From Lyngbya aestuarii BL J (GTDB taxonomy: Bacteria > Cyanobacteriota > Cyanobacteriia > Cyanobacteriales > Microcoleaceae), in assembly GCF_000478195.2 (NCBI RefSeq), contig NZ_AUZM01000034.1, forward strand, positions 1 through 64,000: DNA of 64,000 bases, read 5' to 3'. Below are positions 56,350 to 63,591 of this stretch, piece by piece. The translations under genes and the position numbers were made by a program. The first letter of the stretch is position 1; every line of letters begins with the position of its first letter. The notes below the pieces were generated by a model that searched no databases, was not told the origin of the DNA, and saw only the letters and a program-made list of their open reading frames with translations.

Positions 56350-58590
56350 CTATCGTTGAGAAAGATTATCCCGTTCGCTCGGAAGCAAAGCCATCGGATT
56401 GACAGCACCTTGTCCAGAAGGATGAATCTCAAAGTGTAAGTGGGGGCCTGTACTTCTGCCTGTACTGCCCATTTCCGAAATTTGTTGACCCTGAGCCACC
56501 TTCTGACCTTTATTCACCAGAACACGACTGTTATGAGCGTAAAGGGTTAAACTGCCGTCGGGATGCTCAATTTCCACCAAGTTACCATAGCCGCCACTAT
56601 TCCATCCGGCATAAGTGATCACACCAGGCGCCGCCGCAAAAATAGGTGTACCAATGGGAGCCGCGATATCAATTCCTCGGTGCATCCGTCCCCAACGCCA
56701 ACCATAACCCGAACTTAAAATCCCTCTCGACGGCCAAATATAGCCATTAAACCGCATTGTTCCCCCCGGCAGATAAGTATCCGGGCCAGCAAGGGGAGGT
56801 AAATCCGGAGAAACAATACGTCCGAGAGCCGGATTTTGCAACGGATCATAAGCATTGGGGCCAATCGGTGCAGTCGCCACTACAGAGCGATCATCACGTT
56901 CTGCTTCCAGTTCCTGTTGAGGTCGCAGAGAAGCAGCACTGCTAGGAGCCGTTAACTCCGGTGAGGGGGCAGACTGTTCGGGAGGTTGAGTATTTCCGCC
57001 TGCGGCTTCTTTTTGCCGTCGATAGGCATCCGGGTTGAACTCCGGGTTGATCCGACGCAATAATAACGGTTGTTGAGGGTTAGTCGGTGTCACATCTTCT
57101 GGAGTTGACGACTCCTCAGAGGTTTGTTGAGAGGCATCTGCTAGCTGTTGGGCTTGCTGAATCTTGTACTCTTGACGCAATCGGTCAACATCTGCCCGCA
57201 ACCGACTGGTATGGAGTTGAGAAGACGAGTCGCTCTTAACCCCGGAAGACTTCGAGCGGAGATCAACAGTAGAGGAAACCAGTTGAGTCTGGACTTGATC
57301 ACGAGCAAAGGGGATTTGAGCAGAAATCGCCGTTGGTTCGGTGATTGCACCTGAGGCCTTAATCGTCGCCAGTTGATCTAAAGAAAACTGACTTTCAGCT
57401 TCAGAATTGGGACTCAGAGTATAAGGCTTAACTCGACTCAACTGATTGCCAATGGGTTTTAAAGTTTTGGACTTCAGCTGCGAGGACAACTCCGAAGACG
57501 TAACCGAATCACCAAAGCGGGACTCGTTTGTAAAGCTGGAAAGAGATTGCTCTCTAGACGGAAATTCTGTGGCTAAATTTTGAGAATTTCCAAATTTATA
57601 AGGCTGATTTGAAGAGGGATTTTGAAAAAGGGAACGATGAGAAGCTCGTTGAGGAATTCTAAGATTTTGATTGGCTTGTATAAAATTAGGGTCAGTCAGA
57701 TTATTAGTTCTGAGAATCTCATCGACAGACACATGATGACGGCGAGCAATCTGAGCCAGCGTCTCCCCTGCATTAACACGGTAGACTACTGAAACCGAGT
57801 TATCGGTTAACTCTGATTCAATCACAATCGCTCCAGGCACTTCAGGTGTTGCGTAGGGCTGATTTGTACCTGCCGCTTCCAATAAAGAGGAGTTTGATTG
57901 AGCAGATCGACGACGAGGGGTTGCCAACGACTCTGATGAGTCTCCTGAATTATTAAAGAGAGCGTCCTGAGATGCTGAGGTCGATGAATTCCGCTCAACA
58001 GTAGATGGGGATGTTGCTGAATTGGGGCGGGATTCTGAACCCACCAGAGGAGCTTGAGACTCGGACTCGGACAACTCAGTTAAACCCGATTTCGGTGATT
58101 TAACAGACTCTACTCCTTGATCTGAGGAATTAGCCCGATTAGAGTTGTCGTTTAGCTCAGATAAATTCCGCAGCAAAGAGGGTTGCCATTCGGAATTATT
58201 TACGGGTGTAGCTGCCTGCGCGGCCCCCTCTTGAGAGTTTGAGACTCCATCAGAGGTGGGCTGCATTTCCGGAGTGAGTGTCGCCACAGAGGATACTGTA
58301 TTGGCTCGACTCCCTTCAGGCCAGAGAATACCGGAGGCAATTGCTAAACCGAGGAAAGCGGCAGAAGTATATGCCTTACTGCTACCTAAGAAAATTGCCT
58401 GCTGTGCGAAAACCACTTTAGCCTCTTGCTTTTTGGCTTTCGTGGCAGGTTGGTCTGAATGTGGAACTGTTCCTTTCAAAGAACGACCTCCTATGGAGAA
58501 GCGTTTAACTGTCCTTGGATAATTCAAGGGATTCAAATCAGTGATATCAATCACTTTTATAAATTGATATACGTCACTGACAGTCATCAA
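56350..58590 (-). CDS. LysM and M23 domain peptidase
   Basis: A 746-residue envelope protein. A cytosolic N-terminus of about 72 residues precedes a membrane helix (TSAAFLGLAIASGILW). A LysM domain (about 268-312, NAGETLAQIARRHHVSVDEI) binds peptidoglycan; the long middle is Ser/Gln/Pro-rich and unstructured. The C-terminal M23/LytM domain (about 615-735) has the zinc ligands in HRGIDIAAP (HxxxD) and HLHFE (HxH) and the YAHNS segment, so it should be a catalytically competent endopeptidase acting on peptide cross-links, or an activator of one. ATG 58590. The CAU tRNA lies 145 bases downstream. Confidence 0.92.
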   Translation of the reverse strand: MMTVSDVYQFIKVIDITDLNPLNYPRTVKRFSIGGRSLKGTVPHSDQPATKAKKQEAKVVFAQQAIFLGSSKAYTSAAFLGLAIASGILWPEGSRANTVSSVATLTPEMQPTSDGVSNSQEGAAQAATPVNNSEWQPSLLRNLSELNDNSNRANSSDQGVESVKSPKSGLTELSESESQAPLVGSESRPNSATSPSTVERNSSTSASQDALFNNSGDSSESLATPRRRSAQSNSSLLEAAGTNQPYATPEVPGAIVIESELTDNSVSVVYRVNAGETLAQIARRHHVSVDEILRTNNLTDPNFIQANQNLRIPQRASHRSLFQNPSSNQPYKFGNSQNLATEFPSREQSLSSFTNESRFGDSVTSSELSSQLKSKTLKPIGNQLSRVKPYTLSPNSEAESQFSLDQLATIKASGAITEPTAISAQIPFARDQVQTQLVSSTVDLRSKSSGVKSDSSSQLHTSRLRADVDRLRQEYKIQQAQQLADASQQTSEESSTPEDVTPTNPQQPLLLRRINPEFNPDAYRRQKEAAGGNTQPPEQSAPSPELTAPSSAASLRPQQELEAERDDRSVVATAPIGPNAYDPLQNPALGRIVSPDLPPLAGPDTYLPGGTMRFNGYIWPSRGILSSGYGWRWGRMHRGIDIAAPIGTPIFAAAPGVITYAGWNSGGYGNLVEIEHPDGSLTLYAHNSRVLVNKGQKVAQGQQISEMGSTGRSTGPHLHFEIHPSGQGAVNPMALLPSERDNLSQR

Positions 58591-59665: not shown

Positions 59666-60820
59666 TCAAGCCACAAGAGGCGGTTGACACAATTTGTCTT
59701 CAAATTCTTCTTCCTGTTTTTCCATCTCAGCGATCGCTTGTTGGATGACCTGGCGACTGCTTAATCCCTGTTGATGCAATTTTAACCACTGTTGAGCTGT
59801 GTTTCCCTCTTGTAAGATTTTCTTCACCGGAGATAAAAAGCAGCTAAAGCCTCGCCGTTTAGCAACAGGCCAAACTTCTTGATAGAGTTGGCTAATCCAA
59901 TCTTGAGCCGAAATCACTTGACCGTTTTTCCAATGTCGTAGAGAAGCCTCTAAACTCTGATGAGCTGCTGCGGCTTCGTTTTCTTCGGTTAAAGTTACTA
60001 AGTCTGAAGCTCGGGTACTGGCTGGAAAATTACTTTGTTCGAGGGGGTCAAGACTCGGATCTTCAAACATTTGCCACAGTCGCGCTTCGATCAAGGCAGT
60101 GACAGCTAGTAAAGCCACGGGGTTGACAATTAGATCACAAATTCTCAGTTCTAAGCGGTTGAGGTTGTAGGGACGGCGATCGCCATTGGGTCGTACCGAT
60201 GACCACAGATGACGCACATTGTACATCGTTCCCAGAGCCAGTTGTTCCTCTGTCCAGTCAATATAGTGGGAATGACTTTCAAATAAGGGAACGTGTTGAG
60301 GGGTTTGCGGAAAAACAGACCAACGGGTGGAATGGTTGCCTGTGGGTTGACCATCGAGAAAGGGAGACGAAGCACTCAAAGCTAAGTATAACGGTGCTTC
60401 TACCCGCACGAGGCGAATGGCTTTCATCAACAGTTCCGGGTCACTAATGCCAATATTGATGTGAATGCTAGCGGTTACTACAGTGGTGCCGTAGGTTTCC
60501 TCGATATGAGTATGGTAAGGATTATTGGGATCGGAGCGATAAAAACAGTCACTTTCACCCAGAGATAGGGTACTTCCGGGAATGAGCGTATAGTTTCCCC
60601 ATTGCTGGAGAGCCGATCGCAGCGATCGTCGAGGCTTGACTAAAGCACATAATAGGCGATCATAGTTACACAAAGGCGCAGTCGTGTACTCGACATTACG
60701 ACTATCGGGTTCTCGCACAAATCCCTCTAGTTCAGCGACAATCCGATCTGAAAGGCCGACAACTTCTCCTTGAGGAGTGCCAGTATACATTTCTACTTCA
60801 AAGCCTTTTGACAATAGCAC
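59666..60820 (-). CDS. gshA: Glutamate-cysteine ligase, cyanobacterial type
   Basis: A 384-residue enzyme for the first step of glutathione synthesis. The N-terminus (LLSKGFEVEMYTGTPQGEVVG), SVEYTTAPLCNYDRLL-type block, PGSTLSLGE and THIEETYGTTVVTASIHINI are characteristic of the short GCS2-type GshA found in cyanobacteria; the C-terminus with RRPYNLNRLELRICDLIVNP is also family-typical. ATG 60820. The product feeds the glutaredoxin and GST systems seen elsewhere in this window. The last residues (EDKLCQPPLVA) show no anomaly. Confidence 0.94.
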   Translation of the reverse strand: MLLSKGFEVEMYTGTPQGEVVGLSDRIVAELEGFVREPDSRNVEYTTAPLCNYDRLLCALVKPRRSLRSALQQWGNYTLIPGSTLSLGESDCFYRSDPNNPYHTHIEETYGTTVVTASIHINIGISDPELLMKAIRLVRVEAPLYLALSASSPFLDGQPTGNHSTRWSVFPQTPQHVPLFESHSHYIDWTEEQLALGTMYNVRHLWSSVRPNGDRRPYNLNRLELRICDLIVNPVALLAVTALIEARLWQMFEDPSLDPLEQSNFPASTRASDLVTLTEENEAAAAHQSLEASLRHWKNGQVISAQDWISQLYQEVWPVAKRRGFSCFLSPVKKILQEGNTAQQWLKLHQQGLSSRQVIQQAIAEMEKQEEEFEDKLCQPPLVA

Positions 60821-60947: not shown

Positions 60948-61772
60948 TTATCCTATCATGGATTCACATTCCCAAGGAAAGATACTTTCTGATTCCTCCG
61001 CAGCATTGAATACATAGTCGTAGTCAAATTCTACAGAACGAATATGACGGGTGACAGAAAAGCCACAATTGATTACTTGATCGGTGGTAAAAGTGACCAG
61101 AATTAGTTCCGTGAGTTTGCGGGGAGAAATCTCGGGTTTCTTGATGAAGTAATCTCTCCGAGCAAAAAATATTCGTTCATCTTTAGGAACAACGATTCCA
61201 TTGAGTTTGTGTGTATTCTGAATGGGTTTAATATAGTTTCGGATGAAATCATCCGGATTTTTTTGCAGTCGGGATAAGCGTTCATGCTGAAGCCAGCTCA
61301 TATTAAACATTAATTTCAATAACTCAAACCCTAAAACATAATAAAATACTTTGTCTTTATCTTCGGGGTTTAAAGCCAGTCTCAAGGCAGATTCGAGATA
61401 TTCTTCGGGCTGACAACGAGCATCTTGAGCAGAGTGAACATAAAACTGCTTGATATAGTTTCTCAAAAGAGATTCATTCAAATTGGTGTCGAGTTTAAAC
61501 CAGGTTAAATACCGTTTGATTCGTTGTAAGGTATCAACATCTTCTAAGAGTTTGGACACTAAACCGTCGGCTGTATATTCGTCTAAAAACTCAGCTTGCT
61601 TCTCCGGAGAGGAACCGCACAAAATATAACACAAAGATAGAACATAGCGCCGTTCGTTCCAGGGTAAACCCTGCGCCCACTGCTGCACCTCTGGGGGCAA
61701 CCGATCAAACAACGCATTACTTTTTAAGGGTTCAAGGAAATTCTTTCTTTTGTACTTTAGCATGGCTCTCAC
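60948..61772 (-). CDS. Conserved-looking hypothetical protein of unknown function
   Basis: A 274-residue soluble protein, largely helical, with blocks such as LPPEVQQWAQGLPWNERRYV, LESALRLALNPEDKDKVFYY and TTDQVINCGFSVTRHIRSVE. I do not recognise a named domain; the even composition and neat N-terminus indicate a genuine gene and I recall similar unnamed proteins in cyanobacteria. ATG 61772 or ATG 61763 (MLKYKRKNF) may be the start. A perfect CRP-like site lies about 100 bases upstream (61874-61889), so it is probably under cAMP-receptor-protein control. Confidence 0.65.
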   Translation of the reverse strand: MRAMLKYKRKNFLEPLKSNALFDRLPPEVQQWAQGLPWNERRYVLSLCYILCGSSPEKQAEFLDEYTADGLVSKLLEDVDTLQRIKRYLTWFKLDTNLNESLLRNYIKQFYVHSAQDARCQPEEYLESALRLALNPEDKDKVFYYVLGFELLKLMFNMSWLQHERLSRLQKNPDDFIRNYIKPIQNTHKLNGIVVPKDERIFFARRDYFIKKPEISPRKLTELILVTFTTDQVINCGFSVTRHIRSVEFDYDYVFNAAEESESIFPWECESMIG

Positions 61773-62190
61773 TTAAAGCTTTCTGTGGGTTTTTCTGGGA
61801 TAAAAATTGTGAACAGTCAGCAAACTTAATAGGGATTGAATAGCTTGATTAGATCGCCTGGACAGACTCTAGGTGTGATATAAATCACAAATTTATGTGT
61901 TTTTGATCGGTTTAATCTTTTTGTGTAGATTGACCCTCAACTCACTCATTTTTAGCGAACCCGTCTTCATCTAACTTCAACTTATGTTTATCTTTATTCG
62001 CCTCCAATTTGTTAATTTTTTAGCTCGTCATTTGTTTTTAATTCTAACATCATGGTATCAAAAAAAACCACCTAAAGTCAAGCCAATTTTCTAGATATTT
62101 ATACTAGACTTGAGTTGTTAATTTTATACCAAACCCTAGCTGGTAAAATTAAATACATCAACTCTAAGTATTTTCAAGGAGAAATCGAAA
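61773..62190. other. Divergent promoter region with CRP-like site
   Basis: These 418 bases separate the unknown gene (minus) from cobB (plus). The perfect palindrome at 61874-61889 is the only clear element. I looked for a cobalamin riboswitch before cobB (B12 box and conserved GCCACTG) and saw none. No small ORF is convincing. Confidence 0.5.
61874..61889. promoter_or_regulatory. Perfect CRP-type operator (TGTGA-N6-TCACA)
   Basis: TGTGATATAAATCACA is a full consensus site for CRP/SyCRP1-family regulators. It is 102 bases upstream of the unknown gene's ATG and about 302 upstream of cobB, a position suited to activation of the minus-strand gene. The assignment to SyCRP1 is inference. Confidence 0.6.
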
Positions 62191-63591
62191 ATGACTGTGA
62201 TCATTGCTGCGGATCGGAGTGGATCAGGTAAAACAACCATTACCCTTTCGCTTTTAGCCTATCTCCAACACCATCAGTTCAATATCCAATCTTTTAAAGT
62301 TGGCCCTGATTATATTGATCCAATGTTTCATCAATTTGTAACTCAAAAACCCTGTCGCAATCTCGATCCCATTCTTACATCAGAACCCTATATTAAACAG
62401 TGTTTTACTCATCATACTCAAAATACTGATTATGCTCTGATCGAAGGCGTGATGGGATTATTTGACGGAGTTTCACCCCAGATTCATCAAATCCCGACAG
62501 CCTCTACCGCTCACATTGCTAAAATACTCAATTTACCTATCGTATTAGTCATCGATTGTAGTCGATTATCTGGTTCAGTCGCCGCGATTGCTCATGGTTT
62601 TACTACACTCAATCCTCAACTTAAATTTGCAGGTTTAATCTTAAATAAAGTCGCCAGTGATCGTCATCTAGAACTCTTAAAATCAGCTCTAGAACCTTTA
62701 AATATAGACATTCTTGGGATTGTACGACGACAAGATAAAATTCACCTCCCCGAGCGACATTTAGGCTTAGTTCCCACCGATGAACTGCCTCAATTACAAA
62801 CTTTAATTCATCAACTCACTCATTTAGCCGCAGACTGTTTTGACTGGGAAAAACTGCTTCCCTTGTTTAAGACTCAAAAAACAGGATATATTCAATTCAA
62901 TCTTAAAAAACCCGATCTAAACCTTCCTGTTAAAATTGCGGTAGCTCGCGATCAAGCCTTTAGTTTCTATTATCAAGATAACCTCGATCTTTTACAAAAA
63001 CTCGGAGCAGAATTAGTTTTTTGGAGTCCTCTAAATGACACTCAACTTCCCGAAAATATTCAAGGTTTTTATTTTGGGGGTGGTTTTCCCGAACTCTTTG
63101 CAAAACAGTTATCCGAAAATTTATCAGTTAAAAAAGCAGTTCAAGATCTGATCTCCGTAGGAATACCAACTTACGCCGAATGTGGAGGATTGATGTACTT
63201 ATGTGAAGAAATAATTGATTTTGAGAACAAATATTGGCCAATGGTGGGGATTCTTCCCACAAAAGCGTTCATGGGAAAACGATTAAAATTAGGATATTAT
63301 CAAGCCAATATATTACAAGACAGTTTCTTATTACCCAAACAAACAACTATTTTTGGACATCAATTTCATCGTTCCGAACTCACCTTAGAATCCCCAAATC
63401 CCCTCTATAAAATGAAGCGTTATGGTAAAAATCTAGAGAACGAAACAATAGGCGAAGGATGGCAATTTACTAATCTTCATGCGTCTTATTTACATCTACA
63501 CTGGGGAAATAATCCCGAAATTCCAACGAGATTTTTACAGCAATGTTCGATGTTTAATTCTGCTGAATCTGCAACAATTCAGGAACAGTAA
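62191..63591 (+). CDS. cobB: Cobyrinate a,c-diamide synthase
   Basis: A 466-residue glutamine amidotransferase that amidates the a and c carboxylates of (hydrogeno)cobyrinic acid in cobamide synthesis. The P-loop DRSGSGKTT (8-16) and GPDYIDPMFH mark the N-terminal ATPase, and the class I amidotransferase triad region is seen in YAECGGLMYL (catalytic Cys) and HLHWGNNP (catalytic His). A GGGFPE motif is before the Cys. ATG 62191 with AAGGAG, 7 bases away. The end overlaps by 38 bases the debris of a polysaccharide deacetylase on the other strand. Confidence 0.95.
   Translation: MTVIIAADRSGSGKTTITLSLLAYLQHHQFNIQSFKVGPDYIDPMFHQFVTQKPCRNLDPILTSEPYIKQCFTHHTQNTDYALIEGVMGLFDGVSPQIHQIPTASTAHIAKILNLPIVLVIDCSRLSGSVAAIAHGFTTLNPQLKFAGLILNKVASDRHLELLKSALEPLNIDILGIVRRQDKIHLPERHLGLVPTDELPQLQTLIHQLTHLAADCFDWEKLLPLFKTQKTGYIQFNLKKPDLNLPVKIAVARDQAFSFYYQDNLDLLQKLGAELVFWSPLNDTQLPENIQGFYFGGGFPELFAKQLSENLSVKKAVQDLISVGIPTYAECGGLMYLCEEIIDFENKYWPMVGILPTKAFMGKRLKLGYYQANILQDSFLLPKQTTIFGHQFHRSELTLESPNPLYKMKRYGKNLENETIGEGWQFTNLHASYLHLHWGNNPEIPTRFLQQCSMFNSAESATIQEQ

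Follow-up and report, generated by a model that had tools for sequence, protein, structure and literature searches.

A conserved CRP-type palindrome upstream of an uncharacterised gene of filamentous cyanobacteria, and a putative polar array of phased half-sites in its relatives

A perfect palindrome, TGTGA-N6-TCACA, lies in front of an uncharacterised gene of Lyngbya aestuarii BL J, here called U274. It is probably an operator for CRP, the cAMP receptor protein, and in many relatives the terminal unit of a polar array of half-sites repeated at 22-23 bp; we would give this reading a probability of about three in four. The perfect site, TGTGATATAAATCACA, was present as claimed in the original prediction made from these letters; the window, i.e., the whole stretch of 64,000 nucleotides that was analysed, contains no other 0-mismatch copy of the motif (motif scan). 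The 418-bp divergent gap between U274 and cobB, from the GTG at 61772 to the ATG at 62191, was likewise as described. An alternative start of U274, the ATG at 61763, would give 271 aa; this ATG was chosen by alignment with relatives as the start used in the analysis. The features are as follows.

59666-60820, minus strand: gshA, cyanobacterial glutamate--cysteine ligase, on the same strand as U274 and downstream of it
60948-61772, minus strand: U274, uncharacterised 274-aa protein from the list of open reading frames, the presumed target gene
61826-61831, minus strand: candidate -10 element TATTAA (4 of 6 consensus positions), found by script; a consensus guess and one of 8 candidates
61874-61889, no strand assigned: perfect CRP-type palindrome TGTGATATAAATCACA, corresponding to the terminal unit on the U274 side of the relatives' array
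62191-63591, plus strand: cobB, the divergent gene, a neighbour of U274 in this genome only (1/57 loci)

Half-sites in phase upstream of U274

The family, to which Planktothrix, Okeania and Trichodesmium belong, is represented by 61 genomes, and orthologues of U274 were found in 57 of them. Broken or cut genes were kept among the 57 loci, namely those of G039 (stops), G057 (one stop), G055 (fragmented) and G058 (contig end). At the locus of G039 (L084), U274 is broken by several stops and the perfect upstream palindrome is intact.

In the alignment of the upstream regions of these orthologues, more than one site was visible. TGTGA half-sites follow one another on the same strand at steps of 22-23 bp, and one TGTGA-N6-TCAC(A) stands nearest U274. 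For example, G025 has half-sites at -241, -219 (CGTGA), -197, -175 and -153, and G007 has them at -319, -297, -275, -253 and -230, without a good palindrome. Exact TGTGA pairs 8-60 bp apart in the 57 upstream regions were spaced by 22 bp (50 pairs), 23 bp (9), 44 bp (27), 45 bp (11) or another distance (3), and a [TCG]GTGA pair at 22-23 bp is present in 38 of the regions. The window itself has only the palindrome at U274, and no TGTGA-like half-site was found 22-23 bp from it.

The second half of the CRP site is distributed unevenly along these arrays, of which 87 distinct ones were collected from all loci examined, some non-family loci and tandem duplicates included. Internal units (103 non-redundant) matched TCACA at positions 12-16 in 1.65 of 5 bases, compared with 1.19-1.60 at other offsets. 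For the 51 non-redundant terminal units, the match was 2.94 of 5, compared with 0.51-1.80, with information at TCAC. The second half is thus kept mainly in the terminal unit, and therefore the array is a series of half-sites that ends in a single palindrome.

It is conceivable, but rather improbable, that the palindrome is an ordinary single CRP site and that the TGTGA tail is bound by another protein (for example, L114) or forms a separate direct-repeat box. The internal units without the CRP second half would fit such an arrangement, and so would the existence of L114, a CRP-like protein whose recognition helix (FEETNK) differs from that of CRP. There is also a precedent in the response regulator ArcA, for which extra direct repeats beyond the dimer box, at 11 or 22 bp, and a cooperative, concentration-sensitive occupancy are described in the part of PMC3798270 available to us. 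However, the tail motif resembles a CRP half-site including its flanks, with T after TGTGA (position 6) in 62% of the tail units, A/T before TGTGA and A/T-rich positions 18-20. Furthermore, the tail is in register with the palindromes. Among the 70 perfect palindromes in the family with a TGTGA 10-40 bp upstream, the spacing is 22 bp in 50 and 23 bp in 7, i.e., 57/70 (the reversed pattern gave 31 matches, 26 of them in genera g9 and g11, a control for counts and not for spacings).

Conservation of the palindrome and its presumed target

When 400 bp upstream of each orthologue was examined, a site with at most one mismatch was found in 43 of the 57 (10 perfect), compared with 0/57 for the reversed motif and a mean of 0.72 (maximum 3) for shuffles. 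Of the 10 family genera having U274, 8 have such a site. Thus, the orthologues, together with a CRP carrying the expected contact helix (see below), speak for the predicted CRP control of the 274-aa gene, and the palindrome as a CRP operator of U274 is supported at the level of sequence. The numbers of sites per orthologues were 1/1 in g1, 0/1 in g2, 1/1 in g3, 1/1 in g4, 0/3 in g6, 1/2 in g7, 25/27 in g8, 5/5 in g9, 4/10 in g10 (Planktothrix) and 5/6 in g11. The 14 orthologues without a site at this threshold (the one in g2, three in g6, one in g7, two in g8, six in g10 and one in g11) count against the proposal; among their genomes, a CRP match is missing only in G001. The distance from the site to the start codon varies by genome from 43 to 280 bp, and in the alignment the g4 site falls on the distal motif of g9; the position of the site has therefore shifted, which also counts against the proposal. 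At the orthologues outside the family, a site with at most one mismatch was found in 0 of 18 loci (22 matches minus G265 and three weak ones of 24% identity), and therefore the site was either gained within the family or lost outside it.

The original prediction held that a perfect site is rare by chance, a statement to be taken with caution. The site is unique in the window. In the organism's own genome (6.86 Mb), 10 perfect palindromes were found compared with 1 match to the reversed pattern; the 10 are 9 distinct ones, because one stretch is present on two contigs. The 61 genomes of the family contain 377 perfect palindromes; the reversed control gave 368, of which G060 alone accounts for 81, so that perfection alone is weak evidence. 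When up to two mismatches were allowed, the window gave 21 matches compared with 29.7 expected from shuffles, i.e., no general excess. A chance match or functionless relic at 61874-61889 would be in keeping with the missing tail, with the location of 4 of the 9 own-genome palindromes inside open reading frames, and with an excess over the reversed control that is only about twofold when genera g9 and g11 are left out of the family (282 versus 142). However, this explanation is very unlikely, since the palindrome stands upstream of a gene that has such a site in three quarters of its orthologues and is itself perfect rather than decayed. The significance of the site comes from its conservation across species, as read from the sequences, and not from its perfection.

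Control of cobB, or of both divergent genes, had also been considered in the original prediction, and the site does lie inside the region shared by the two genes. This possibility is remote, because some 300 bp separate the site from the start of cobB, and cobB adjoins U274 in one of the 57 family loci, whereas the site remains with U274 in others; therefore, the site belongs to U274.

No Pfam or NCBIfam family matched the protein encoded by U274 above the cut-off, and fold searches with an AlphaFold2 (AF2) model, which is all-alpha with a pLDDT of only 75 and a pTM of 0.71, gave no convincing match. Matches to Augurin and DUF5621 were taken as chance. The alignment of 47 sequences has 44 invariant columns, and no relatives beyond the own protein family were found by the sequence and fold searches. 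The recurrent neighbours are gshA and an HD-domain protein with a phosphodiesterase (PDE) fold. The former follows U274 in 34/57 family loci (this genome and 33 of the 56 others) and the latter lies divergently upstream of U274 in 37/57; both counts are lower bounds because the flanks examined were about 1-1.5 kb or less, and two of the HD matches are short. On the minus strand, the gap between U274 and gshA has no terminator-like site, and read-through from U274 into gshA is possible. We found no evidence for the role in motility or pili that had been suggested for U274.

Apart from the palindrome at U274, four perfect sites of the genome are intergenic. They are next to Ycf66, a TIR/AAA_35 gene that is divergent from the HD protein, a small-protein gene (here an M50 protease gene stands on the far side of the site), and a gene for a ChW-repeat protein. 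A link to motility or pili was considered and set aside, as nothing pointing to one was found.

Arrays at other genes

Genome-wide, the pattern TGTGA-22/23-TGTGA-22/23-TGTGA gave 108 matches in 47 of the 61 family genomes, several of them overlapping and a few being plain tandem duplications, compared with 9 for the reversed control. Outside the family such arrays are rare, with 14 matches in a phylum sample of 374 genomes compared with 3 in the control. That the 22-bp periodicity arose by tandem duplication of a short unit rather than by selection on spacing is barely credible: in 9 of the 87 arrays, adjacent spacers do share at least 70% identity (100% in two of these arrays), but the mean identity of adjacent spacers is 39% compared with 32% for random pairs, and therefore most arrays are not recent duplications, while pairs of TGTGA and palindrome at 22-23 bp occur in seven genera and the second half is retained chiefly at the end of the row.

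Besides U274, one family of proteins of about 62-74 aa recurs beside the arrays. A divergent gene of this family adjoins the array at 15 of 32 array loci (two of the 15 being weak matches), which is not a rate because the 32 loci were hand-picked to cover array types. The family includes L222-L228 (G000), L192, L194, L196, L202, L206 and others, and the members scanned had no Pfam or NCBIfam match of note. The organism's own genome has 7 such genes, and TCAC recurs at 22-23 bp upstream of 5 of them. At four of these five, 56-65 bp separate the last TCAC from the start codon; L223, the fifth, has a 22-23-bp pair that ends at -108, and a further TCAC follows 45 bp on, at -63. At three of the five, the far unit is a GTGA-N6-TCAC palindrome. 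The orientation thus differs, the palindrome being gene-distal at the small genes and gene-proximal at U274, and this counts against the proposal.

Several further loci with sites of this kind were seen. In the window, a second, looser two-unit CRP-like array (58540-58577, minus strand), with GTGA 23 bp before GTGA-N6-TCAC, lies upstream or at the start of a LysM/M23 peptidase open reading frame (56350-58590), whose true start possibly lies downstream of the first TTG. A palindrome with one mismatch was found at the equivalent place of the LysM/M23 gene in four Planktothrix-type loci, L011-L014, where the gene starts could be aligned (those of L015-L018 could not). At two Planktothrix (g10) loci, a DUF2949-type gene (L229:2314-2604 and L230:2326-2616; the L229 copy was scanned) adjoins a conserved palindrome and half-site. 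In the Okeania/Trichodesmium group, a different small open reading frame (MQANNINQPMNKEKLEQL..., about 64 aa) is found near the arrays of L190, L191 and L218, on their far side, which is reminiscent of the small-protein pattern.

Regulator, cAMP supply and a possible graded switch

The likely regulator is L111 (G000:C11:42499-43200, minus strand), which has cNMP-binding and Crp HTH domains. Its recognition helix, ...LARETVTRVLSKL... (RETVTR), keeps the R-E-R contacts, which, with their residue numbering, we take to be the DNA-contact residues of E. coli CRP. In the part of PMC2633013 available to us, the contact residues are reported to be conserved in the cyanobacterial CRPs studied, and three contact positions are named. 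A CRP orthologue was found in 59 of the 61 family genomes; G055 has no match at an E-value of 1e-60, yet has a 1-mismatch site at U274. Another protein, L109, looks like NtcA by its sequence. The own genome encodes 23 Guanylate_cyc (adenylate/guanylate cyclase) domains, a count that takes the cAMP and cGMP types together. In this genome (G000), the cyclase domains are located at L117-L136 and three more places.

The HD-domain neighbour of U274 may act on the same second messenger. The two copies scanned (L003:330-1268 and L019:3220-4092, both minus strand) belong to NCBIfam NF045583, Npun_R2479, for which no paper using that name was found in the open-access literature searched. Its AF2 model (pLDDT 75.9, pTM 0.81) aligns with class I cyclic-nucleotide phosphodiesterases over 228-247 residues at Z of about 14 (against PDE10A, a VIA Z of 14.2 and an rmsd of 4.4 over 230 aligned residues), and the best 50 matches are all phosphodiesterases; by Foldseek, the best E-value was only 0.014. 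The Pfam PDEase_I score of the G000 copy is 12.3 bits compared with a cut-off of 24.8, and the L019 copy has no match; being below the gathering score, the protein is therefore called PDE-like here and is not filed as a class I member. In an alignment of 12 rows, Y58, H59, H63, H100, D101 and D197 are invariant and N60 is not, so that YHNxxH, HD and ADL, presumably the metal-site motif of phosphodiesterases, are largely kept.

We also considered the HD gene as the target of the site in relatives and rejected it, since a palindrome with at most one mismatch was found in 0 of 17 loci, in stretches of up to 450 bp upstream of the HD start. At L065, part of the U274 array falls inside the stretch upstream of the HD start. 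In the own genome, the HD gene is located elsewhere, with a perfect palindrome 248 bp upstream, and this palindrome may instead serve the divergent TIR/AAA_35 gene, which is nearer. Because the array is close to U274 and not to the HD gene, cAMP feedback through the HD enzyme is a suggestion only.

The most likely mechanism for the arrays is that cAMP-bound CRP dimers nucleate on the palindrome. More dimers would line up next to them along one face of the DNA, each anchored by a single TGTGA and by the dimer beside it. In the relatives, the row of half-sites would then produce a steeper switch, or one graded by the level of cAMP. CRP-cAMP would activate U274 from an upstream, class I-like position, if activation rather than repression is assumed. 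A promoter scan gave nothing usable near the palindrome, and the TATTAA candidate is absent from its output; as a guess, this candidate would place the centre of the site near -62.5, a class I-like distance. In the present genome, the palindrome, which would be the nucleating unit, stands at U274 without a tail, and tails are present at five small-protein genes. A broader proposal, which we put forward only tentatively, is that in one family CRP-cAMP forms a directional, cooperative row that grows one way from the palindrome over half-sites spaced by two helical turns, with a length that reads out cAMP. This type of operator may have spread to a set of targets, among them U274 and the paralogues of about 62-74 aa; at U274, it would often have on its other side a PDE-fold enzyme, possibly one that itself lowers cAMP.

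In E. coli, class III CRP promoters have two or more separate full CRP sites, and their helical phasing matters. The arrays would be similar in having several CRP dimers per promoter and in phasing, and differ in having polar half-sites at 22-bp steps. CRP sites are known or predicted in cyanobacteria (SyCRP1; Xu and Su 2009, PMC2633013). As far as the accessible part of that source goes, the classical operators of E. coli CRP and SyCRP1 share with the present site the TGTGA-N6-TCACA motif, the conserved contact residues and a regulon that differs between lineages, whereas the polar tail of half-sites at 22-23-bp steps is a feature of the arrays. The targets also differ, U274 and the small proteins being those found here; the Trichodesmium hypothetical genes Tery_2530 and Tery_1044 listed there possibly include U274. 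The word "tandem" is absent from the main text of PMC2633013. The arrays resemble the ArcA sites (PMC3798270, in part) in having extra repeats about one or two helical turns from the core box; however, ArcA is an OmpR-family response regulator acting on direct repeats, and here a CRP-family palindrome carries a tail of half-sites. No description of polar 22-bp arrays of CRP half-sites was found among the matches listed in one open-access library, and an earlier description may exist elsewhere.

If the proposed mechanism is true, the layout of the DNA alone would turn CRP, the textbook activator that binds as a dimer to a palindrome, into a cooperative and graded switch. In filamentous cyanobacteria such as Planktothrix, Okeania and Trichodesmium, it would also offer a first regulatory handle on U274, present in nearly all genomes of the family, and on a family of small proteins absent from Pfam and NCBIfam.
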